From Mesorhizobium loti (GTDB lineage: Bacteria; Pseudomonadota; Alphaproteobacteria; Rhizobiales; Rhizobiaceae), in contig AP017605.1 in NCBI GenBank assembly GCA_002356515.1, positions 806,001 to 870,000 of the forward strand: 64,000 bases of DNA, written 5' to 3'. A program made the position numbers and the translations under genes. Shown in pieces: positions 35,171-51,774 of this stretch. Each line of letters starts with the position of its first letter. Position 1 is the stretch's first letter. The notes under the pieces were generated by a model that saw only the letters and a program-made list of their open reading frames with translations, did no database searches and was not told the origin of the DNA.

Positions 35171-36352
35171 TTGCAACGCAAGCGCCCTACCATAGCGGAT
35201 GTCGCACGGACCGCCGGTGTCTCCATCGGCACGGTGTCGAACTTCATCAATGGCACCGCCGGCCTCAGGGAAGACACACGCGAGCGCATCGAGAAGGCGG
35301 TCGCCGCGCTGATGTATCGGCCGAGTTCCTTTGCGCGGTCCCTGCCCGGCCGCGCGCCCCGCAGGCCAAAAAACCTCGATCACCTGCCAAGGCTGCTGGT
35401 CGCCGGCCGCGTCAGCGTCGACTTCCTGTGCCGTGTCGACGTGCTGCCGCATCGCGACGACCGCATCACCGCCAGCCATATCGAAAAGGCGTTGGGCGGG
35501 CCGGCCGCCAATCTCGCGGTTGCCGCGGCCGGCGTTGGCGCGCCCTACGCTCTTGACGTGGAACTGGCGACGGCGGTCGGCAGGGACGCCGAAAGCGACT
35601 GGGCCTTGGGCGAGCTCGCCAAGCTGGGTGTCCACGCCTTGCCGATCCGCAGCACGCCCAACAACCGGCTTTCGCAGGCGATCGTCATCATCGAGCGCAA
35701 CGGCAGCCGCACCATCATCAGCGAACCGTTCGAGCTTGGCGAGGTCGACCTGACCGCCAATCTGGACATCCAGCCCGAGCAGCGCCCGGCCTGTCTGCAT
35801 ATCGAAGGCTTTCACTATGAGACGATGACCGCCTCCATCGCGCGCTTTCATCAGGCAGGCTGGAAAGTGAGCCTGCATTCGGCCGGCTTGCCCAAAAGCG
35901 CTCGCACGCCGGAAACCTTCGCGCAGATGGTCAGGCAGATCGACCTGACCTTCATCAACGACGTGATGATGCGGGAGATTTTCGGCTTTCGCACCGGGAT
36001 GGCGAGCATGATCGAAGAGGTGCGGCTGATGCTGTCACGCATCAAGCCGCGCGGGACCGTCGTGCTCACCCTTGGCGAGTTTGGCGCGGTCGTCTTCCCG
36101 GCTGGCGGCGGCCCACAGATCGAGGTGCCGGCACTGCCGGTCAACCGCGTCGACGCCACCGGCGCCGGCGACAGCTTCGCCGGCATCTTCCTCAGCCTCT
36201 GGCTGCATGGCGCGTCGCTGGATGCCGCCGCCCGCTATGCCGCGATCGGCGCAAGCCTGACGACCACGGTCGAAGGCGCGCAGGGCTACATCGCGGATTT
36301 TGCCACCCTGAAGGCGACCGCCTTGGCGAATGACACTGTTATGGCAAGTTAA
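35171..36352 (+). CDS. LacI-type HTH fused to PfkB-family sugar kinase
   Basis: A 393-residue fusion. Residues 6-60 are a canonical LacI HTH with hinge (TIADVARTAGVSIGTVSNFING, RPSSFARSL). In place of the periplasmic-binding-like sensor, residues 72-390 form a PfkB/ribokinase kinase: GGPAANLAVAAAGVG (first signature) and DATGAGDSF (second signature with the catalytic Asp). The kinase looks intact, so the protein may both phosphorylate the imported sugar and use its own active site to sense it. TTG 35171 starts the frame right at the HTH. It leads the sugar-uptake operon, 53 bp ahead of the next gene. Confidence 0.9.
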   Translation: MQRKRPTIADVARTAGVSIGTVSNFINGTAGLREDTRERIEKAVAALMYRPSSFARSLPGRAPRRPKNLDHLPRLLVAGRVSVDFLCRVDVLPHRDDRITASHIEKALGGPAANLAVAAAGVGAPYALDVELATAVGRDAESDWALGELAKLGVHALPIRSTPNNRLSQAIVIIERNGSRTIISEPFELGEVDLTANLDIQPEQRPACLHIEGFHYETMTASIARFHQAGWKVSLHSAGLPKSARTPETFAQMVRQIDLTFINDVMMREIFGFRTGMASMIEEVRLMLSRIKPRGTVVLTLGEFGAVVFPAGGGPQIEVPALPVNRVDATGAGDSFAGIFLSLWLHGASLDAAARYAAIGASLTTTVEGAQGYIADFATLKATALANDTVMAS

Positions 36353-42379: not shown

Positions 42380-43258
42380 TCACCCGCCAAATCGCGGCTC
42401 CGGAACACCGGTCACGCCGAGGCCAGTGATGGCGAACAGGCTGCCGCGCAGAACACCGTCACCGGGAAAGCGCGGCAGCGGCGGCTTGGCCATCGAGGTG
42501 ACGTAGAGCGTGTCGAGCTTCGGCCCGCCGAACATCACGCTGGTGATCTTCTTCACCGGCATGTCGATGATGCGATCGACGGTACCGTCCGGCGCATAGC
42601 GCACCAGGCGTCCGTCATAGACCAGCGCATTCCACAGGTATCCCTCGGCATCGACAGTCGAGCCATCGGCCGCACCGCCCTTGCTCGTGTCGACGCGCAC
42701 GAAGGTGCGGCGGTTGGTGGCAGCCCCCGTGGCGATGTCGTAATCATAGGCCCAGATCTCGCCGGTCCAGGTGTCGGCGAAGTAGAAGGTGCGGTCGTCG
42801 GGGCTCCAGCACGGGCCGTTGGAGCAGATGATGCCGGAATCGATCCTGGTGACGGAGAAATCCGGATCGAGCCGGTAGAGCCCGCCGGAAGGCCCCTCCT
42901 CCATCGTGTCCATCGAGCCGGCGAAGAAGCGGCCGCGCCGATCGACCTTGCCGTCATTGAGACGGTTCATCGGCCTGTCCGGCTCCGGATCGTGGATAAA
43001 GGTCACATCGCCAGAGGCGAAATCGAGCAGATGGAAGCCGCGCTGCAGCGAGACGACCGCGCCGCTGCCATCCCTGCGCAGCGCCATCGAGCCGATCTTC
43101 ATCGGCACGTCCCAGGAGCGGATCTCGCGCCCGTCAGCGGTGGCGCGGAACACGCGCCCGTCGAAACTGTCGATCCAGTAAAGCCGCTCCTGTTCGACGT
43201 CCCACAGCGGGCCCTCGCCCAGCGTCGTCTTCACGTCCACCACGACTTCGATCTTCAT
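42380..43258 (-). CDS. SMP-30/gluconolactonase-family lactonase
   Basis: A 292-residue beta-propeller lactonase that opens aldonolactones to aldonates. The expected divalent-metal ligands are visible as Glu in TTLGEGPLWD near the N terminus, Asn in CSNGPCWSPD and Asp in GSTVDAEGYLWNAL. ATG 43258 follows AGGAGGA. It is the last gene of the minus-strand sugar cluster, 40 bp after the BKACE gene, and supplies the lactone-opening step after the dehydrogenase. Confidence 0.92.
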   Translation of the reverse strand: MKIEVVVDVKTTLGEGPLWDVEQERLYWIDSFDGRVFRATADGREIRSWDVPMKIGSMALRRDGSGAVVSLQRGFHLLDFASGDVTFIHDPEPDRPMNRLNDGKVDRRGRFFAGSMDTMEEGPSGGLYRLDPDFSVTRIDSGIICSNGPCWSPDDRTFYFADTWTGEIWAYDYDIATGAATNRRTFVRVDTSKGGAADGSTVDAEGYLWNALVYDGRLVRYAPDGTVDRIIDMPVKKITSVMFGGPKLDTLYVTSMAKPPLPRFPGDGVLRGSLFAITGLGVTGVPEPRFGG

Positions 43259-43298
43259 GCCATCCTCCTGTGTATTGGTGTGCGGCGATTTGGCCGCG

Positions 43299-44261
43299 TC
43301 AGAAGGCGACCTTGTCGCCACCTTTCAGGGACAGGATCTCGCGCGCCTCGTCCGGCGTCGCCACTTCCATGCCAAGCCCCTCGATGATCTTGCGCGCCAG
43401 CAGGACCTGCTCGGCGTTGGACTTGGCGAGTTTGCCCTTGCCGGCCCACAGGCTGTCCTCCAGCCCGACCCGGATATTGCCGCCGAGCGCTGCCGATTGC
43501 GCCGCGATGCGCAGCTGGCTGGCGCCGGCGCCGAGCACCGACCAGCGGAACTGGTCGCCGAACAGCCGGTCGGCGGTGCGCTTCATATGGGCGACGTCTT
43601 CCGGATGGGTGCCGATGCCGCCGAGCAGGCCGAACACCGACTGCACGAAGAACGGCGGCCTCACCAGCCCGCGATCGGCGAAATGGGCAAGGTTGTAGAG
43701 GTGCGCAATGTCGTAGCACTCGAACTCAAAGCGCGTGCCATTGTCGTAGCAGGTCGCCAGTATGTACTCGATGTCCTTGAATGAGTTGCGGAAAACGAGG
43801 TCGCGCGTCGCCTCCAGATGCGGCTTTTCCCAGTCGAACTTGAAGGTCTCGTATTTGTCGGCGAGGTGATAGAGGCCGAAATTGATCGAGCCCATGTTGA
43901 GCGAGGCCACTTCCGGCTTGAACTGGGCGGCCGGGCGCACGCGCTCCTCGACCTTCATGTAGGGGCTGCCGCCCGTGGTGATGTTGATGGCGGCATTGGT
44001 GCCTTGCTTGACGCGCGGCAGGAAGCGGGCAAAGGCCTCCGGCGTCTGGTCGGGCTTGCCGGTTTCCGGGTCTCGTGCGTGCAGATGCAGGATCGCGGCA
44101 CCGGCCTCCGCCGCCGCGATCGCCTCCGAGGCGATCTGATCGGGCGTAATCGGCAGATAGGGCGACATGGTCGGCGTATGGATCGCGCCTGTCACCGCGC
44201 AGGTGATGATGACCTTACCCTTGACCGCCGATGCGCCTGATTTGCGGCTGGTTTCTTTCAT
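43299..44261 (-). CDS. BKACE (3-keto-5-aminohexanoate cleavage enzyme family)
   Basis: A 320-residue TIM-barrel enzyme of the beta-keto acid cleavage family, which condenses a beta-keto acid with acetyl-CoA and yields acetoacetate plus a new acyl-CoA. The zinc-binding pair is in ILHLHARDPETGKP and the later zinc Glu in RVGLEDSLW. VKGKVIITCAVTGA is the N-terminal strand. Its start overlaps the upstream dehydrogenase stop by four bases. That neighbour resembles L-gulonate 3-dehydrogenase, so the keto acid here is likely a 3-keto aldonate rather than dehydrocarnitine. Substrate assignment is inference. Confidence 0.88.
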   Translation of the reverse strand: MKETSRKSGASAVKGKVIITCAVTGAIHTPTMSPYLPITPDQIASEAIAAAEAGAAILHLHARDPETGKPDQTPEAFARFLPRVKQGTNAAINITTGGSPYMKVEERVRPAAQFKPEVASLNMGSINFGLYHLADKYETFKFDWEKPHLEATRDLVFRNSFKDIEYILATCYDNGTRFEFECYDIAHLYNLAHFADRGLVRPPFFVQSVFGLLGGIGTHPEDVAHMKRTADRLFGDQFRWSVLGAGASQLRIAAQSAALGGNIRVGLEDSLWAGKGKLAKSNAEQVLLARKIIEGLGMEVATPDEAREILSLKGGDKVAF

Positions 44262-45205
44262 TGTCCGAACTCCTGATCCGATTTCTTCTTGTGCGCCGCC
44301 AGCGCCATCAGCCGGCGATCCCGCCAGACCTGCCGCTCACCCAGGCTCTCCCTTGGCAAGCGCTTGCTGCGTTCGGCCTCGACGGTTGCCATGACCTCGC
44401 CCGCCCAGTCGACCCGGCGCAGCATCTGCGGAAAAATGTTGGAATAGATGCCCTGGTAGCGATCGACATAATCGCGCACGCCGCCGGGTGCGTTGAGGTC
44501 GATGGTCTCGAACGGTCCCATGAACGACCAGCGCAGCGCCAACCCGTCGCGGATGCCGATGTCGATATCCTCGACGCTGGCATAGCCATCCGCGACAAGC
44601 CGGAAAGCCTCCTCCAGCAAGGCGCCCTGCAAGCGGTTCATGATGAAGCCGTCGAGCTCGCGCTTCATCACCAGCGGTGCGTGGCCGGCATCGATGAGGA
44701 AGGCGCGCGTCCTTTCCAGCGTCTCGGCGGAGGTCCACGGCGCCGGCACCACCTCCGCCGCCGGAATGAGGTACGGCGGGTTGATCGGATGCACGACCAG
44801 GCAGCGATGCCGCCCTTCTAGATGGTTGGTGAATTTCGACGGCAACAGCGCCGAGGTGGAACTGGCGATCACCGTTTGCGGACCGGCAAGCCTGTCGATC
44901 AGGGAGAATACTTCCCGCTTCACATCGAGGTTTTCAGGTGTGTTTTCCTGCACATGGGCGGCATCGGCCAGCGCCTCCGCCAGTTCGCCGACGACTGCGA
45001 TGCGACCCAGCACAGCGTCGACGGATTGCCCGCGCAGCAGATCGTTCGCGCCGAGATCGCCGAGCACGCCTTCTATGTAGTCGCGGGCGCCATCCGTCGC
45101 AGCCGGCGACTGGTCCCACATGCGCACAGCATGGCCGGCGCGGGCGAAGCTGATCGCCCAGGCCCGCCCGATGAACCCGCTTCCGACAATCGCGACATTG
45201 GCCAT
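44258..45205 (-). CDS. Lambda-crystallin/L-gulonate 3-dehydrogenase-like oxidoreductase
   Basis: A 315-residue NAD-dependent enzyme of the 3-hydroxyacyl-CoA dehydrogenase superfamily. VAIVGSGFIGRAWA is the NAD-binding motif, SSTSALLPSK and HPINPPYLIPAAEVVP hold the catalytic region. The C-terminal half (GFIMNRLQGALLEEAFRLV, WSFMGPFETIDLNAPGG, RQVWRDRRLMALA) closely follows the pattern I recall for CRYL1, which oxidises L-gulonate at C3. L-carnitine dehydrogenase is a related alternative. ATG 45205 gives a short N terminus right at the motif. The frame upstream to 45313 is unlikely. Confidence 0.88.
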   Translation of the reverse strand: MANVAIVGSGFIGRAWAISFARAGHAVRMWDQSPAATDGARDYIEGVLGDLGANDLLRGQSVDAVLGRIAVVGELAEALADAAHVQENTPENLDVKREVFSLIDRLAGPQTVIASSTSALLPSKFTNHLEGRHRCLVVHPINPPYLIPAAEVVPAPWTSAETLERTRAFLIDAGHAPLVMKRELDGFIMNRLQGALLEEAFRLVADGYASVEDIDIGIRDGLALRWSFMGPFETIDLNAPGGVRDYVDRYQGIYSNIFPQMLRRVDWAGEVMATVEAERSKRLPRESLGERQVWRDRRLMALAAHKKKSDQEFGQ

Positions 45206-45215
45206 GGATTGTTCC

Positions 45216-46022
45216 TCAGAGTGTTTCGACGTTGCCGTCGACGCCGAGCGACTGGCCCGAAATGTTGATGCCCGCGTCGGACAGCAGAAACGCCACCATC
45301 GAGGCCACGTCATAAGGGCTGGTCATGCGGCGCAGCGAAATGTTCTGCAGATAGCGCCCGGTCATCTCCTCATGGCTGATGCCGATTTGCTTGGCGCGTG
45401 CCGCGATGACGCCCTCGATACGTGGCCCCTCGATGATGCCGGGCAAGATGGCATTGACCCTGATGCCGTGCGGTCCAAGCTCCTTGGCGAGGCTCTGCGT
45501 GAAACCGATGACGCCGAACTTGGCCGCCGAATAGGGCGTGCGGAACGCGTAGCCATGGCGGCCGGCCGCCGATGACATCGACACGATCGAGCCGCCGCCT
45601 GCCGCCTTGATCAGCGGCACGGCGCGCCGGGCACAGAGGAACTGGCCCGTCAGGCAGATGTCGATGCAGCGCCGCCAGTCGTCCGGTTCGATCTCGTCGA
45701 CACCGCCGGTCGGTCCGGCAATTCCGGCATTGTTGATCAGCGCATCGAGCCCGCCGAGTTTTTCCTGGACCGTCTCGAACAGCCGGTCGACATCCTCGTC
45801 GCGCGAGACATCGGCCTTGACCGCCGCGACCAGGTCGATCTTGCCGGGAGCGGCGGCCAGCGCCTCGTCGGAGATGTCGCAGACGACGATGCGGGCGCCG
45901 AGCCGCGACAGCGTTTCGGCGATGGCGAAGCCGATGCCGCCAGCGCCCGCCGTCACCAGCACACGCTGTCCTTTCAGCCCGGCCAGAAATTCGTCCGCCG
46001 TTGCGGGTGCCTTTGCGCTCAT
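45216..46022 (-). CDS. Short-chain dehydrogenase/reductase (probable sugar dehydrogenase)
   Basis: A 268-residue SDR. TAGAGGIGFAIAE near residue 24 is the cofactor loop, CDISD suggests NAD preference, NNAGIAGP, the catalytic Ser in SMSSAAGRHG and the YSAAKFG pair complete the active site. The end (SGQSLGVDGNVETL) is typical of aldose or alcohol-oxidising members. It sits between the transporter and the lactone/acid enzymes, so it probably oxidises the imported sugar at C1. ATG 46022 lies 13 bp after the permease stop. Confidence 0.9.
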   Translation of the reverse strand: MSAKAPATADEFLAGLKGQRVLVTAGAGGIGFAIAETLSRLGARIVVCDISDEALAAAPGKIDLVAAVKADVSRDEDVDRLFETVQEKLGGLDALINNAGIAGPTGGVDEIEPDDWRRCIDICLTGQFLCARRAVPLIKAAGGGSIVSMSSAAGRHGYAFRTPYSAAKFGVIGFTQSLAKELGPHGIRVNAILPGIIEGPRIEGVIAARAKQIGISHEEMTGRYLQNISLRRMTSPYDVASMVAFLLSDAGINISGQSLGVDGNVETL

Positions 46023-46035
46023 CGTCCTGTCCTTT

Positions 46036-48117
46036 TCATTGCAGCCGCCGTTCGCGCAGCGCCATGACGGCACCGAGAACGACCAACCCGTAAAGAATTG
46101 CCCTTGTGGCGTAGGGAAGCGTGGTGCCGGCCAGCAGCATCTGCAGCGCCGTCAAAAGCAGCACGCCGCCGAGCATGCCGAGATAGTGGCCGCGCCCACC
46201 GGTGATCAGCGCGCCGCCGACCACCACCACCGCGATCGACGGCAAGAGATAATCGTCGCCCATGCCAAGGCTAGCCTGGCCGGAAAAGCCGGTCAGCATG
46301 ATGCCGACGATCGCCGCACAAACGGCCGACAGCATGTAGACCAGGATCAGCGTGCGCTCGACGCCGATGCCGGACAGGCGCGCCGCGCGCAGCCCGTTGC
46401 CGATGCCGTAGACCCGGCGTCCGAACGGCGTGCGCCCGAGCAGCAGCACCGCAACGGCCACGAAGACGATCATCAACAGCACGATCGGGGTGACAAAGCC
46501 GAGCTTGGCCGTCATGAACCAGCGCAGCATCGGCGAGGAGAAACCGGCCGGCGTTCCCTGCGAATAGACAAGCGCGAAGCCCTGCAGGATGCCGTTGGTG
46601 GCCAGCGTCATGACGATCGGCGAGATGCCGAGATAGGCGATGCCGAAGCCATTGGCGAAACCGATGGCGCAGGCCATCACCAGCACGACCGGGAGGGCAT
46701 AGAGGAGTGCGGCGTCGGAGCCATTGACCATGCCGGCCAGGATGATGCCGGAAATGCCGATCGTCCACGGCACGGAAAGATCGAGGCCACCGGTCAGAAT
46801 GACCGTTCCCTGCCCCAGCGCCAGGACGGCGAGGAAGGACGACAAGACCAGCAGCGAGTTCCAGTAACCCGGATTGAGGACGGCGCGACCGAGCCAGATC
46901 TGGGTGACGACCACGATGATGAGCAGGCAGACATAGGCGGGCAGCGCATAGCGCAGCGTCTCGGCGTTGCGGAGGCGGAAAGCCGGGCGCGGCGATGCCG
47001 GACCGCGCGGGCCTTGCGACGGCCCAGTAATCTTGAGCCGCCGGTCGATCGGCTCGAGCTGCGAAGGCAATATGCCAGCACGCCAGGCAGCGAGCCGGGC
47101 GCGCGCCGCGCGCAGTTGCACGGCCAGCACCGATGCGTGGGACAAGGATCCGGCAAGGGCCGCCAGCACCAGGATGGTGCCTTCCGCGATGGTCGAATAG
47201 TAAGCCGATACGTTGAGCACCAGCAGCATGTTCACCACCATCATCAGGATATAGGCGCCGAAGACGGTGCCGACCGGACCGCCCTGCCCGCCGCCAAGCC
47301 GCGTGCCGCCGACGACGACAGCCGCGAACATCGAAAGCAGCAGCGGATTGCCGACCAGCGGGTCGGCACTGCCGGTCTGCGCGCTGATGAACACGCCGGC
47401 AAGGCCGTAGCAGCCGCCGGCCATGACATAGACGGCAAAGCGCACCAGCACGACATTGACGCCGACGGCAGCGGCCGAATCCGGGTCGCTGCCGACGGCA
47501 TAGAGTGCGGTGCCGAAACGGGTTCCCTTCAGCCAGAACCAGGCGAGCAGGACGACGCCGATCACCACCAGCGGCATGGGCAGCCAGCCGGTGATCGCAT
47601 CGCCCAGATAGAATGTGCCGAGATCGGGCGACACGAAGCCGCCGGGCTTGTCCATCACCAGCAACGTGACGCCTTGCAGGATGAACATGGTGGAGAGCGT
47701 CACCACGATGGGCTGCATGCGCAGCACCGCGATGAAGAAGCCGTTGAAGGCGCCCACCGCCATGCCGACGCCGATGCCGACGGCCGTCCACAAAAGGATG
47801 CTCGCGCCTGGCGCCATCGGGTCCATGCTCGATGCCAGCACGACATTGACCAGCGAGATCACCGCGCCGGCGGACAGGTCGAAGCCGCCCGACAAGATGA
47901 CGATGGTCTGGCCGATTGCCGCCAGCGCCGAGGTCGCGCCGCCGCTCGACAGGAACGACACGTCGAAATAGGTCAGCGGCCCGGCACTGATCCAGTCGAC
48001 GATGAAAAGCAGGATCGCAAGAACGATGGCGGCGATCAGCGCGCCGCGATGGCGCATCAGCGCGCGGCGCAGGCCGAAACCTGCCAAAACAGGGGATGAA
48101 ACTGCAGCGCTGCTCAT
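46036..48117 (-). CDS. Double-length sugar ABC permease (two fused RbsC-type domains)
   Basis: A 693-residue inner-membrane protein made of two complete BPD_transp_2 units. The first (about residues 20-325) has VILSGGFDLSAGAVISL, LYAVGSDPDSAAAVGV and GGTRLGGGQGG; the second (about 380-690) has VILTGGLDLSVPWTIG, VYGIGNGLRAARLSGI and VVVVGGALITGGRG. A 50-residue basic, proline-rich cytoplasmic linker joins them. The gene thus encodes the whole permease dimer. It overlaps the ATPase gene stop by four bases. Fused forms are uncommon compared with separate permeases. Confidence 0.92.
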   Translation of the reverse strand: MSSAAVSSPVLAGFGLRRALMRHRGALIAAIVLAILLFIVDWISAGPLTYFDVSFLSSGGATSALAAIGQTIVILSGGFDLSAGAVISLVNVVLASSMDPMAPGASILLWTAVGIGVGMAVGAFNGFFIAVLRMQPIVVTLSTMFILQGVTLLVMDKPGGFVSPDLGTFYLGDAITGWLPMPLVVIGVVLLAWFWLKGTRFGTALYAVGSDPDSAAAVGVNVVLVRFAVYVMAGGCYGLAGVFISAQTGSADPLVGNPLLLSMFAAVVVGGTRLGGGQGGPVGTVFGAYILMMVVNMLLVLNVSAYYSTIAEGTILVLAALAGSLSHASVLAVQLRAARARLAAWRAGILPSQLEPIDRRLKITGPSQGPRGPASPRPAFRLRNAETLRYALPAYVCLLIIVVVTQIWLGRAVLNPGYWNSLLVLSSFLAVLALGQGTVILTGGLDLSVPWTIGISGIILAGMVNGSDAALLYALPVVLVMACAIGFANGFGIAYLGISPIVMTLATNGILQGFALVYSQGTPAGFSSPMLRWFMTAKLGFVTPIVLLMIVFVAVAVLLLGRTPFGRRVYGIGNGLRAARLSGIGVERTLILVYMLSAVCAAIVGIMLTGFSGQASLGMGDDYLLPSIAVVVVGGALITGGRGHYLGMLGGVLLLTALQMLLAGTTLPYATRAILYGLVVLGAVMALRERRLQ

Positions 48118-49646
48118 GCGGCTTCTTCCCCGGCATGGCCGAGCGCCGGCCGCATGATGGCGGGTTCGGTGATGGCGTCACCTTCGAGCTCGGCCGCGAT
48201 GCGCCCGTCATAGAGAACCAGGACCCGGTCGCATTGGTGGACGAGTTCGGGAATCTCCGTCGAGTGCAGCAGGATCGAGCCGCCGGCGGCGACGTAGTTT
48301 CGCATCATCACATAGAGCTCATGCTTGGTGCCGACATCGATGCCGCGTGTGGGATCGAACAGAAGCAGGATGCGGCTCTGCGCCACCAGCCATTTTGCGA
48401 TGGCGATCTTCTGCTGGTTGCCGCCGGAAAACGCCCCGGCCCGCGTCCACAGCGCGCGGCGGTCGACCTCGACGGTGGCGAATGCTTCCTCGACGGAACG
48501 AGTCTCGGCCTGCGCGTTGACAAGGCCGAAGCGCGTGAAACGCGACACCACGGGCAGCGTGGCGTTCTGGCTGCCCGAGAGTTTCAGGAACAGGCCTTCG
48601 GATTTGCGGTCTTCCGGCACCAGGCCGATGGCCATGTTGGGCCGCAGCGCATCCGCCGGCGAGCCGAGCCAGACCTTGCGACCATCGACAAGCACGTCGC
48701 CGCGGGTGATTTCGGCCATGCCGAAGCAGGCCAGGAACAGGTCTTGCTGGCCCATGCCCTGCAGTCCGGCAATGCCGAGGATCTCGCCCCGGCGCAGGTC
48801 GAAGCGCGCGCCGTCGAGCTTGCGCCCGACCTTGAGGTCGCGCACGCCAAGAACCGGCGGGCCGAAAGCCTGGGCGCCGTCGGGTTTGGGCGGGAAGGTC
48901 TGCTCGATGGAGCGGCCGATGATCTTTTCGATGACGTCCGCATCGGAAACATCTGCGACCGGCGCGGTTACGATATGCCGGCCGTTCCTCAGGATCGTCA
49001 GCGTGTCGCAAAAGGCGCGAACCTCGCGCATGCGATGGGTGATGAAGACGATGGTGGTGCCCGCCGCCTTCAGCCTGGCGATGATGTCGCCCAGCCAGTC
49101 GACGTCGCGACCGGCAAGCGTCGAGGTCGGCTCGTCGAGCAAAAGAATGCGCGGCTTACGGTAGAGGGCACGCGCAATCTCGATCTTCTGGCGCACCGAA
49201 AGCTCGAGTTCGCCGACCTCGGCATCGAGATCGACGGAAAAGCCGAGTTCGTCGATGTGGCGGCGGACAGCCTTGCGCGCGGCACTGCGCCTGATCAGCC
49301 CCGAGATGCCAACGGGCGCGTAGGGTAGCAGCATATTGTCGAGGACGGAGAGATCGCGCACCAGGGTCATTTCCTGGAAAGCCGTCTGCACGCCGAGCGC
49401 ATGCGCCGCGCGCGGCGCGCCGTAGCCGATCTCCTTGCCGAAAACCCTGATATGACCGGCGCTCGGCCGCACCAGTCCCGACAGAAGTTTCACCAGCGTC
49501 GACTTGCCGGCGCCATTCTCACCCAGCAGCGCGTGGACACTGCCGGGGGCGATGCGGAACGACACGCCGTCCAGCGCCACGGTCGCGCCGAACGCTTTGC
49601 TGATGCCGTCAATCTCGATGGCGGAAAGCGCGGAATGTTCTGTCAT
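48114..49646 (-). CDS. Sugar ABC transporter ATPase with two nucleotide-binding domains
   Basis: A 510-residue RbsA/MglA-type ATPase. Domain 1 has GENGAGKST, a degenerate signature (LSVRQKIEIARAL) and LLLDEPTSTL; domain 2 has SGGNQQKIAIAKWL but a Walker B reading LLFDPTRGIDVG, lacking the usual catalytic Glu after Asp. A degenerate first signature is normal in the family, the missing second Glu less so. ATG 49646 (MTEHSALSAIEIDG) is preferred to the upstream frame start at 49682. It lies between the binding protein and the fused permease. Confidence 0.92.
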   Translation of the reverse strand: MTEHSALSAIEIDGISKAFGATVALDGVSFRIAPGSVHALLGENGAGKSTLVKLLSGLVRPSAGHIRVFGKEIGYGAPRAAHALGVQTAFQEMTLVRDLSVLDNMLLPYAPVGISGLIRRSAARKAVRRHIDELGFSVDLDAEVGELELSVRQKIEIARALYRKPRILLLDEPTSTLAGRDVDWLGDIIARLKAAGTTIVFITHRMREVRAFCDTLTILRNGRHIVTAPVADVSDADVIEKIIGRSIEQTFPPKPDGAQAFGPPVLGVRDLKVGRKLDGARFDLRRGEILGIAGLQGMGQQDLFLACFGMAEITRGDVLVDGRKVWLGSPADALRPNMAIGLVPEDRKSEGLFLKLSGSQNATLPVVSRFTRFGLVNAQAETRSVEEAFATVEVDRRALWTRAGAFSGGNQQKIAIAKWLVAQSRILLLFDPTRGIDVGTKHELYVMMRNYVAAGGSILLHSTEIPELVHQCDRVLVLYDGRIAAELEGDAITEPAIMRPALGHAGEEAA

Positions 49647-49696
49647 ATCCTCGATCGCAGGCTGCGCACTTTGGGACGCCACGCACTAGCGCGGAT

Positions 49697-49729
49697 CGAC
49701 GATGCACGGGCAAGGTCCGTGCATCGTCG
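49697..49729 (-). other. Intercistronic stem-loop between binding-protein and ATPase genes
   Basis: Perfect 13-bp arms (CGACGATGCACGG / CCGTGCATCGTCG) around a seven-base loop in the 101-bp gap. There is no T tract on the minus strand, so it is not a classic terminator. Stems here in ABC operons often stabilise the upstream message and raise binding-protein yield relative to the membrane parts. Confidence 0.6.
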
Positions 49730-49747
49730 CGATTTGCAGGGGGAGGC

Positions 49748-50875
49748 TCAGTTCTCCGGCTGTCCGACGAGGGCGGCGTTGAGCCCGATCTCGGGCGTCT
49801 GGTCCGAAAAGATCGAGGCGAACCAGCCGGGGTTGGAGACCAGCGACGGCTTGAAGACGTTGCAGCCGGCCTTCATCTCCGCCCAGGTGCCTTCATCGCA
49901 CAGCTTGATCGTCTCATTGGTGACGAGCGGCAGCGGCAGGATCGTGGTCTTCGGCACATCCTTGCCCTCGATCGCCTCGACGGCAAGTTTCAGCGCCAGC
50001 GCACCGGAATAAGGCGGCGAGGCATAGGAGATGCGTTGCGCGCCCGCCGGTGCGTAGGGCGGAGCCGAACCCTCGACGTCGGTACCCTCCGGCAGCATCT
50101 GGATGCGGCCGCCATTGGAGCCCTCGCCCGCGCAAGGCAGGAGTTCGCTGGCCTTCTTGCCGGCCTCGAGCTGCATGGAGTTTGCGGTGAAGCAGCCGAC
50201 CTGCATCCACAGCCCGTTAATATCGCCCCAGCTGCGCGTGGCGAGGATCTTGGAGAGTTCGGTGCGGGCGACCGCCTGGCTCCACATGCCGACGGCCTCG
50301 CCGACGATCTTGATGTCGGGATACTTGGCAAAGACTTCCTTGGCGGCCTTTGTGCGCTGGTCGTCGACGGATGTTCCGGGAACACCGGTGATGGCGATGA
50401 TGTTGCCCTTGCCGTTGAGCTTTTTCACCAGCCATTCGGCGGTCACCCTGCCTGCTTCCAGCTGGTCGATATGGACGTTGTAGGCGCAAGGTTCGGTGAT
50501 CTCGGCGTCGTAGGCAAAGACCTTCACCCCCTTGTCGCAGGCGTTCTTCACGACCTGGTTGAGCGCGGTCGGCGAGATCGGATAGACGACGATCGCCTCG
50601 GCGCCGCTTTGCACCATGGCGTTGATCTGTTGGATCTGGCGTTGTGCGTTGGGCCCGGCGACCTGGACCTGCAGGTCCACCTTGTCGGCAAGGCTCTTGT
50701 GTGCGGCCATGGCCTTGACCATGTTCGCCGCCTCGGCCTGCCAGTCATTGCCGATGTAGCTCATGCTGAGAAAGATCTTGTGCTTTTCGGCTGCCTCGGC
50801 GGCCGACATGCCAAAGGCGCATACGGCCATGCCGGCCAGCAGCGCGAGCCGCCGGACTTTCAATCCGATACCCAT
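49748..50875 (-). CDS. Sugar ABC transporter periplasmic substrate-binding protein
   Basis: A 375-residue exported protein with a signal peptide ending near MSAAEAAEK, then a ribose-type periplasmic fold: KIFLSMSYIGNDWQAEAANMV, INAMVQSGAEAIVVYPISPTALN, GVPGTSVDDQRTKAAKE. It is longer than typical RbsB and contains four cysteines likely forming disulphides. GGGAGGA before ATG 50875 decides the start. It is the first gene of the minus-strand cluster and probably its most highly expressed. Confidence 0.9.
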   Translation of the reverse strand: MGIGLKVRRLALLAGMAVCAFGMSAAEAAEKHKIFLSMSYIGNDWQAEAANMVKAMAAHKSLADKVDLQVQVAGPNAQRQIQQINAMVQSGAEAIVVYPISPTALNQVVKNACDKGVKVFAYDAEITEPCAYNVHIDQLEAGRVTAEWLVKKLNGKGNIIAITGVPGTSVDDQRTKAAKEVFAKYPDIKIVGEAVGMWSQAVARTELSKILATRSWGDINGLWMQVGCFTANSMQLEAGKKASELLPCAGEGSNGGRIQMLPEGTDVEGSAPPYAPAGAQRISYASPPYSGALALKLAVEAIEGKDVPKTTILPLPLVTNETIKLCDEGTWAEMKAGCNVFKPSLVSNPGWFASIFSDQTPEIGLNAALVGQPEN

Positions 50876-50964
50876 GTGAATTCCTCCCGATACGAACGAC
50901 CGAATGCCTCCCAAGGGCACGAGACGTGGCCCTTGTCATTCGATGTCGGCGACCGTATCAGCAT

Positions 50965-50979
50965 TTGATCAAAGATCAA
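50965..50979. promoter_or_regulatory. Palindrome TTGATCAAAGATCAA in the divergent control region
   Basis: Perfect six-base arms with a three-base centre, 90 bp upstream of the binding-protein start and 115 bp upstream of the GntR start. Flanking TATCA and TGATA extend the symmetry unevenly. This is the place and shape expected for the FadR-type GntR regulator encoded next to it. Confidence 0.55.
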
Positions 50980-51093
50980 TGATAAAATAACTTGACGGCA
51001 AAGCGACAGGCGCGGACGCTTGACGCGACAGCCGGAACCCTGCATTCCGAGACCGGGTTGAGACGCGGCCTTGCGCGGAAAGGTTTATGGGAG

Positions 51094-51774
51094 ATGGCCG
51101 GAGCGGCGTTCAGGAAGCCTGGTGTCGAGATCGTGCCCCTGTCCAGGGAGACCCTGCAGGACAGGGTCTATCGCCATGTCACCGAACTGATCCTCGACGG
51201 CAGCATCGTCCCCGGCGAGATGGTGACGGTTCAGAGTCTCGCCGACGCCTTCGGGGTCAGCCCGATGCCGGTCAGGGAAGCGTTGCGGCGGCTTACCGCG
51301 GCCAATGCCTTGATGGTCGTTTCAGGCCGCTCGATCGGCATTCCCGCACTCAGCCGCGCGCGCCTCGTCGATCTCAGGAATGTCCGCTTCGAAATCGAGG
51401 CGATCGCCGCCGCATGGGCGGCTGAGCGTATCGACGACCAGGGCATTGCGCAGTTGGGCCAACACCTGACCGCCCTCGAACAGGCCAATGCGGCGGGCGA
51501 CGTCAAATCCTATCTGCGCGCCAACTACGCCTTCCATTTCTCCATCTACCGGGCGGCGGGCTCGGAAAACATCCTCAACATCATCGAAAATCTGTGGCTG
51601 CAGATCAGCCCCTATTTCAACATGCTGCATGATTCCGGAAACTATTCGACCGCCAACGAGCACCACCAGGCGATGTATGCGGCGCTGCGCAACCGCGATG
51701 CCGAAGCCGTCCGCCAAGCCATCCGCGCCGACATCGACGCCGCCTTCGACGTCCTGGTCGACCTGCTGAAATAG
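51094..51774 (+). CDS. GntR/FadR-family transcriptional regulator
   Basis: About 226 residues from ATG 51094 (a TTG at 50992 opens the frame but seems too far upstream). The N-terminal winged helix (LQDRVYRHVTELILDGSIVPGEMV, LADAFGVSPMPVREALRRLTA) is followed by an FCD ligand domain: RFEIEAIAAAWAA, NYAFHFSIYRAAG and EHHQAMYAAL supply the metal-binding Asp/His-type positions. It is divergent from the sugar cluster and likely represses it until a sugar acid accumulates. Confidence 0.88.
   Translation: MAGAAFRKPGVEIVPLSRETLQDRVYRHVTELILDGSIVPGEMVTVQSLADAFGVSPMPVREALRRLTAANALMVVSGRSIGIPALSRARLVDLRNVRFEIEAIAAAWAAERIDDQGIAQLGQHLTALEQANAAGDVKSYLRANYAFHFSIYRAAGSENILNIIENLWLQISPYFNMLHDSGNYSTANEHHQAMYAALRNRDAEAVRQAIRADIDAAFDVLVDLLK

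Follow-up and report, generated by a model that had tools for sequence, protein, structure and literature searches.

We find that an operon of Mesorhizobium loti probably encodes a variant of the bacterial deoxyribonate pathway that draws on a CUT2-type ABC importer. The operon lies in a 64,000-nucleotide stretch of contig AP017605.1 (GenBank assembly GCA_002356515.1, positions 806,001 to 870,000), the whole of which is called the window below, and it joins the importer genes to those for a short-chain dehydrogenase/reductase (SDR), a CRYL1-like 3-hydroxyacid dehydrogenase, a beta-keto acid cleavage enzyme (BKACE) and an SMP-30 lactonase. Its most probable function, to which we give a probability of about 0.7 on the basis of sequence comparison, is the uptake and breakdown of a 2-deoxypentonolactone or 2-deoxypentonate, with 2-deoxy-D-ribonolactone/2-deoxyribonate or a close stereoisomer as the substrate.

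The genes named in an initial annotation of the window are all open on the minus strand at the coordinates given here, and their Pfam and NCBIfam families agree with the names:

50992..51774, plus strand: GntR/FCD regulator, divergent from the operon (PF00392 and PF07729; the true start may fall within the open reading frame)
50964..50973, no strand: TTTGATCAAA palindrome with a TGATCA core in the gap between the GntR and binding-protein (SBP) genes, a putative GntR operator
49748..50875, minus strand: periplasmic sugar-type SBP (Peripla_BP_4)
48114..49682, minus strand: two-domain sugar-type ABC ATPase (two ABC_tran stretches)
46036..48117, minus strand: double-length permease of 693 aa (two BPD_transp_2 domains in a single chain)
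45216..46022, minus strand: SDR dehydrogenase, proposed 2-deoxypentonate 3-dehydrogenase (PF13561/PF00106)
44258..45205, minus strand: CRYL1-like 3-hydroxyacid dehydrogenase, hereafter 3HCDH (3HCDH_N and 3HCDH; NF004783 at 490 bits, cut-off 347)
43299..44261, minus strand: BKACE, proposed 3-keto-2-deoxypentonate cleavage enzyme (PF05853, 358.1 bits)
42380..43258, minus strand: SMP-30 lactonase, proposed 2-deoxypentonolactonase (PF08450, 284.5 bits)

There is a four-base overlap between the 3HCDH and BKACE genes, and the ABC ATPase scores under every NCBIfam transporter cut-off shown.

Relation to the published deoxyribonate pathway

A pathway from deoxyribose through its lactone to deoxyribonate and ketodeoxyribonate, which a BKACE cleaves to acetoacetate and D-glyceryl-CoA, has been published (Price et al. 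2019, PMC6365646; this and the other papers are cited from parts of their text). The organisms of that study are Pseudomonas simiae WCS417, Paraburkholderia bryophila and Burkholderia phytofirmans. The P. simiae cluster consists of GntR, SDR, BKACE, lactonase and two MFS genes, and mutants did not grow; the P. bryophila genes run AraC, BKACE, transporter, beta-hydroxyacyl-CoA dehydrogenase and deoxyribonate dehydrogenase. The SDR oxidized deoxyribonate, and not deoxyribose, in vitro, with between-genera SDR identity stated as 50-60%. In the parts cited, the position of the keto group in ketodeoxyribonate is left undetermined, and glyceryl-CoA is proposed as the cleavage product without direct demonstration. 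The logic of lactone, acid, 3-keto acid and BKACE cleavage, put forward as new when the window was first annotated, had thus already been published for deoxyribose and deoxyribonate.

The window operon resembles this pathway in its GntR regulator with a putative TGATCA-core operator, its SMP-30 lactonase, an SDR from a neighbouring clade and its BKACE, and in that glycerate kinase and acetoacetate activation are encoded elsewhere in the genome. Unlike the published clusters, it has a CUT2 ABC importer with a fused double permease rather than MFS transporters; operons of the window type add the CRYL1-like 3HCDH, and often a second lactonase. The ABC importer, the extra 3HCDH and the candidate partner genes described below look new in the open-licence literature, where absence is weak evidence.

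For comparison, ten Pseudomonas loci were called Price type by gene order, by the TGTGATCACA site before gntR and by 59% SDR identity to a Caballeronia locus (L069; loci are designated by L numbers) whose order of AraC-BKACE-MFS-SDR-SDR matches the published P. bryophila cluster. The window lactonase is 71-73% identical to the lactonases of these ten loci and the window BKACE 63-65% identical to their BKACEs, while GntR identity to the Price-type Pseudomonas regulators is 36-39%. Features of both types meet in Lichenicoccus (L108), which has importer, 3HCDH, BKACE and lactonase together with AtoA, AtoB, a thiolase, a Price-type SDR (58%) and an MFS protein (42%).

The gene set is a conserved unit

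Association of the cassette genes exceeds chance, and the operon is one conserved unit, in agreement with the single operon of the initial annotation. In an order-level even sample of 397 genomes, which includes the window's own, the lactonase was found in 22 (E <= 1e-110), and the set of SBP, ATPase, permease, SDR, 3HCDH, BKACE and lactonase is complete in 18 of these. The four exceptions lack BKACE (L038) or 3HCDH (L192), are cut by contig ends (L195), or carry a 60% lactonase without the cassette (L197). Within the stretches fetched, the full set also occurs in 53 of 80 named loci, the best 80 of at least 582 lactonase-profile relatives in named genomes; gene counts in these loci depend on the identity thresholds of the script and on the extent of the stretch fetched. 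All 80 have the lactonase, 73 GntR, 72 BKACE, 64 each of SBP, ATPase and permease, 60 a window-type SDR, 55 the 3HCDH, 19 a second lactonase and 13 a Price-type SDR.

Incomplete arrangements are of several kinds. A Price-type SDR with BKACE and lactonase but no importer is found in 11 of the 80 loci (ten Pseudomonas, one Solimonas). The 3HCDH is missing from four of 57 ABC-type loci that have SDR and BKACE (L113, L121, L124 and L139, all of which keep the lactonase); the CRYL1-like enzyme is an addition. Three loci have importer, SDR and lactonase without 3HCDH and BKACE (L128, L130, L138), and three have importer and lactonase without any of SDR, 3HCDH and BKACE (L102, L131, L132). Of 199 order-sample genomes, 62 have a match to the 3HCDH (E <= 1e-40); four order-sample loci with a 3HCDH less than 50% identical lack the cassette (L053-L056).

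Several loci depart from the common layout in other ways. The second SMP-30 paralogue, about 53% identical to the first, adjoins the lactonase in the 19 named loci that have it (for example L057:10920-11789) and perhaps serves another ring size or isomer. On a plasmid of Mesorhizobium sp. B2-1-1 (L072), SDR and 3HCDH genes alone are followed by AAA ATPase and HEPN/nucleotidyltransferase genes, which looks like a remnant of the cassette. At L059, L060, L063 and L064, 3HCDH-BKACE pairs adjoin ABC transporters of the branched-chain-amino-acid type (HAAT), GntR and further SDRs, with an alpha/beta hydrolase in L059 and L060; these form a related system with a different importer.

The regulatory gap is conserved as well. 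Of 78 distinct GntR/SBP gaps, 74 contain TGATCA (78 of 82 before removal of duplicates); those of L051, L052, L087 and L191 do not. Outside Mesorhizobium it is present in 53 of 57 gaps, as against a mean of 2.5 and a maximum of 7 in shuffled gaps and 9 of 57 equal-length stretches of SBP genes, although the shuffle comparison gives no probability because the gaps are related by descent. A TGTGATCACA site (also written TGTGATCACATA) precedes gntR in 11 of 11 Price-type loci, Solimonas included. GntR probably acts at the TGATCA palindrome, the putative operator. The site proposed for the P. simiae regulator is GTGATCAC (PMC6365646); two copies lie elsewhere in the window, where 0.93 are expected, and this exact sequence was rejected as the window operator.

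Two dehydrogenases

Of the two SDRs in the Caballeronia L069 cluster, the window SDR is closer to the deoxyribonate-dehydrogenase type (49.4% identity) than to the other (31.7%). In the SDR tree (the SDR, BKACE and 3HCDH trees were built by a quick method and carry long-branch warnings), a clade of 75 rows (SH-aLRT 96) divides in two: 16 rows make up the Price side (support 96), and the window belongs to the other 59, the cassette side (83). The SDRs of L124 and L151 fall outside this clade, as do SDRs encoded near HAAT-type transporters. Because it groups beside deoxyribonate dehydrogenases, the window SDR is more likely an acid dehydrogenase than a sugar 1-dehydrogenase, and it probably makes the 3-keto acid. 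The route from lactone to acid, 3-keto acid and BKACE cleavage stands as the best reading, but not the enzyme order first suggested, in which the SDR came at the start as a sugar 1-dehydrogenase.

The best solved relative of the 3HCDH is lambda-crystallin (3ado, 234 bits), with which it has the catalytic-region motif HPxNPPYxIPxxE in common. Lambda-crystallin is CRYL1, which we take to be an L-gulonate 3-dehydrogenase; the window protein differs in being a bacterial operon enzyme, related to it by sequence likeness. Known members of the 3HCDH family (L-3-hydroxyacyl-CoA, L-carnitine and L-gulonate dehydrogenases) take an L-configured 3-hydroxyl. The 3-hydroxyl of 2-deoxy-D-ribonate is D-configured and would suit the SDR. 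If the two enzymes form a pair covering both C3 epimers, the 3HCDH would accompany the SDR rather than replace it. The 3HCDH is an addition to the published gene set, perhaps with a role for the other C3 epimer.

The cleavage enzyme

Residues H49, H51, E171, R254 and E258 (8rio numbering) are kept in all 108 aligned BKACE rows. The Ala of the GAG-A-SQL motif was considered as a lost catalytic Arg and rejected: the position is 237, and none of the 108 rows departs from R254 or E171. Outside the Price-type rows of this alignment, position 237 is Ala in 45, Ser in 17 and Lys in 7. BKACE15 of Paracoccus denitrificans (8rio, 8rip, 9hnf; PMC11961710), which accepts several beta-keto acids, belongs to the same subfamily and shares catalytic E171 and R254 with the window enzyme, but differs at position 237, with Arg instead of the Ala of the window. 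In the BKACE tree, the window and Pseudomonas enzymes fall in one clade of 79 rows (support 99).

Model names give little guidance to the substrate. The window BKACE does not reach the cut-off of NF052387, the 3-keto-5-aminohexanoate cleavage enzyme of lysine fermentation (223.8 of 382 bits). It passes that of NF053538, "3,5-dioxohexanoate:acetyl-CoA acetone transferase" (544.3 against 430 bits), but so does the Caballeronia deoxyribonate-type BKACE (503.9 bits), so that the name does not reveal the physiological substrate; 3,5-dioxohexanoate was rejected as a label derived in vitro. By the BKACE mechanism, C1 and C2 of the substrate end up in acetoacetate. A 2-hydroxyl should consequently not survive in the product, which favours a 2-deoxy acid; the 3-keto aldonate with a 2-hydroxyl that the initial annotation had cleaved to acetoacetate is not expected to behave in this way.

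Neighbouring genes and the host genome

Genes next to the cassette in some relatives bear on the length of the substrate. In Agrobacterium tumefaciens (L058), the cassette is followed by genes for a chemotaxis protein, a glycerate kinase and an ECH_2 protein that scores 425.9 bits (cut-off 274) with NF004127, a 3-hydroxyisobutyryl-CoA (HIBYL-CoA) hydrolase subfamily. Rhizobium ruizarguesonis (L071/L073) has a chemotaxis protein, larA, larC, a lar-type ATP hydrolase gene, larB, glycerate kinase and ECH_2, with CoA-transferase A and B and a thiolase past a regulator downstream of ECH_2 on the same plasmid stretch. R. lusitanum (L074) has the chemotaxis protein, glycerate kinase and hydrolase, and in Neorhizobium lilium (L075) glycerate kinase, hydrolase, AtoA, AtoB and thiolase are adjacent. 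The glycerate kinase and hydrolase-like neighbours point to glyceryl-CoA, and with it to a C5 substrate.

The glyceryl-CoA hydrolase is called unknown in the cited text of PMC9007349. The HIBYL-CoA-hydrolase-like gene is a sensible candidate for this enzyme, because 3-hydroxyisobutyryl-CoA has glyceryl-CoA as its 2-hydroxy counterpart. As a general partner of the cassette, the hydrolase was rejected, the link holding for one lineage. Nine of the 397 order-sample genomes have relatives at 52-62% identity, and neither glycerate kinase nor the cassette is present in any of the nine stretches. The lar genes (larA, larC, larB and the lar-type gene, L071:14377-18414) lie between cassette and glycerate kinase on the R. 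ruizarguesonis plasmid; some LarA family members racemize glycerate efficiently (PMC11770544), and the R. ruizarguesonis LarA scores under every NCBIfam LarA cut-off shown.

The host genome (8.45 Mb, 4 contigs) has a glycerate kinase relative (67%) and an acetoacetate-CoA ligase (1001.9 bits, cut-off 520.9); no Lar_N protein or LarA was found in it.

A proposed pathway

The CUT2-type importer would bring in a 2-deoxypentonolactone or 2-deoxypentonate. The lactone itself is likely imported, because importer and lactonase co-occur without SDR, 3HCDH and BKACE in some loci. The SMP-30 enzyme, judging by orthology, would open the lactone, and the SDR, whose Pseudomonas relative oxidizes deoxyribonate in vitro, would oxidize the 3-hydroxyl of the 2-deoxypentonate. 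With acetyl-CoA, the BKACE would then convert the 3-keto acid to acetoacetate and glyceryl-CoA. From genes elsewhere in the genome, acetoacetate-CoA ligase might activate the acetoacetate and glycerate kinase might phosphorylate glycerate. GntR would exert control through the TGATCA palindrome.

A number of observations weigh against this proposal. The operon encodes no MFS transporter, an ABC importer standing in its place, and the exact GTGATCAC site is absent from the GntR/SBP gap of the window. The SDR is only about 50% identical to the deoxyribonate type, and the support of 83 for the cassette side of its clade is not starred. The deoxyribonate pathway leaves the role of the 3HCDH unexplained. 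At BKACE position 237, Arg stands in every Price-type row but Ala in the window. The 79-row BKACE clade also holds HAAT-context enzymes (L059, L060) and that of L067, which adjoins a fumarylacetoacetate-hydrolase-type gene, and it excludes the deoxyribonate-type enzymes of Caballeronia and Paraburkholderia (L068, L069); given such a mixed clade, BKACE alone is no marker of the pathway. Adjacency of glycerate kinase and hydrolase is limited to one Rhizobium/Agrobacterium lineage (two of the 80 named loci and two plasmids), so that the four loci may reflect a single event, and the hydrolase-like gene occurs in none of the 22 order-sample genomes with the lactonase (E <= 1e-110). The ECH_2 relative in the host genome is only 42% identical and is probably the valine-pathway enzyme; no AtoA relative was found there, in a search without a positive control.

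Alternative explanations

Carnitine or another quaternary amine comes to mind because 3HCDH and BKACE families also stand side by side in the L-carnitine 3-dehydrogenase and dehydrocarnitine BKACE system, and do so at the genome's own carnitine locus. There the carnitine-type BKACE and dehydrogenase (L004 and L154, about 0.7 kb apart) lie at G000:C1:4632823-4635431; the host genome has six BKACE matches. However, on two NCBIfam carnitine models the window 3HCDH scores 184.8 and 165.7 bits, far under their respective cut-offs of 592 and 414, while the genome's own carnitine-type dehydrogenase falls just under its cut-off (591.2 of 592). The 3HCDH tree agrees, placing the window in a 56-row clade (96) with L154 outside. 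The BKACE likewise separates from the carnitine-type enzymes (L004, L005), which split off on long branches (100), and lacks the 19-column insert of the carnitine type. A lactonase and a sugar importer would moreover make no sense in such a pathway. We therefore reject this explanation, whose chance of being right is minute. None of the three findings that the initial annotation named as refuting its sugar pathway emerged: the dehydrogenase does not group with carnitine dehydrogenases, the BKACE is separate from the genome's own carnitine-operon enzyme, and the genes are co-conserved.

A longer 2-deoxy sugar, acid or lactone, such as a 2-deoxyhexose or 2,6-dideoxyhexose, would pass through the same steps to a C4 hydroxyacyl-CoA, with the 3HCDH oxidizing C3. 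The 3-hydroxyl of 2-deoxy-D-gluconate is L-configured, the form on which known 3HCDH-type acid dehydrogenases act. A Pseudomonas route from 2-deoxyglucose to 2-deoxy-3-ketogluconate is also cited in PMC6365646, but five bacteria tested there did not grow on 2-deoxyglucose. The glycerate kinase neighbours point instead to a C3 product, and all 55 named loci with the 3HCDH also have the SDR, so a longer substrate seems unlikely. The same 55 loci bear on the idea that a free 2-deoxy sugar is the substrate, the SDR its 1-dehydrogenase and the 3HCDH the sole C3 dehydrogenase. This scheme would give each gene one step and would suit the sugar-type transporter. Yet the SDR groups with the deoxyribonate type, of which the tested member takes deoxyribonate and not deoxyribose (PMC6365646), and L113, L121, L124 and L139 keep SDR, BKACE and lactonase without the 3HCDH; we consider this scheme improbable. 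Breakdown of a 2-deoxypentonate or its lactone remains the reading we prefer.

A broader form of that reading is a tentative conjecture, and as a joint claim we would sooner expect it to fail than to hold. The cassette might scavenge 2-deoxypentonates and their lactones in general, with SDR and 3HCDH as a stereochemical pair that oxidizes D- and L-configured 3-hydroxyls to the same 3-keto acid, and with a single BKACE for both epimers; the HIBYL-CoA-hydrolase relative of the Rhizobium lineage might be the missing glyceryl-CoA hydrolase; and the nickel-pincer LarA of R. ruizarguesonis might convert L-glycerate to D-glycerate for glycerate kinase. The sources scavenged could be, for instance, peroxide decarboxylation products of 2-keto-3-deoxy sugar acids, or oxidized DNA sugar.

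Another transport operon in the window

Elsewhere in the window, a LacI-type helix-turn-helix and a PfkB carbohydrate kinase are fused in one open reading frame of 393 aa (35171-36352, plus strand). This fusion heads a second operon for CUT2-type transport, which also has genes for a GATase1_like protein and an M20 peptidase.

Implications

The cassette occurs in many plant- and soil-associated bacteria, where its members bear misleading annotations such as 3-hydroxyacyl-CoA dehydrogenase, 3-keto-5-aminohexanoate cleavage protein and sugar ABC transporter. If the proposed function is correct, a large set of transporters and enzymes would gain a proposed substrate, and the deoxyribonate pathway a second, ABC-based uptake route. 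There would also be a candidate gene for glyceryl-CoA hydrolase, which PMC9007349 calls unknown in the part cited.

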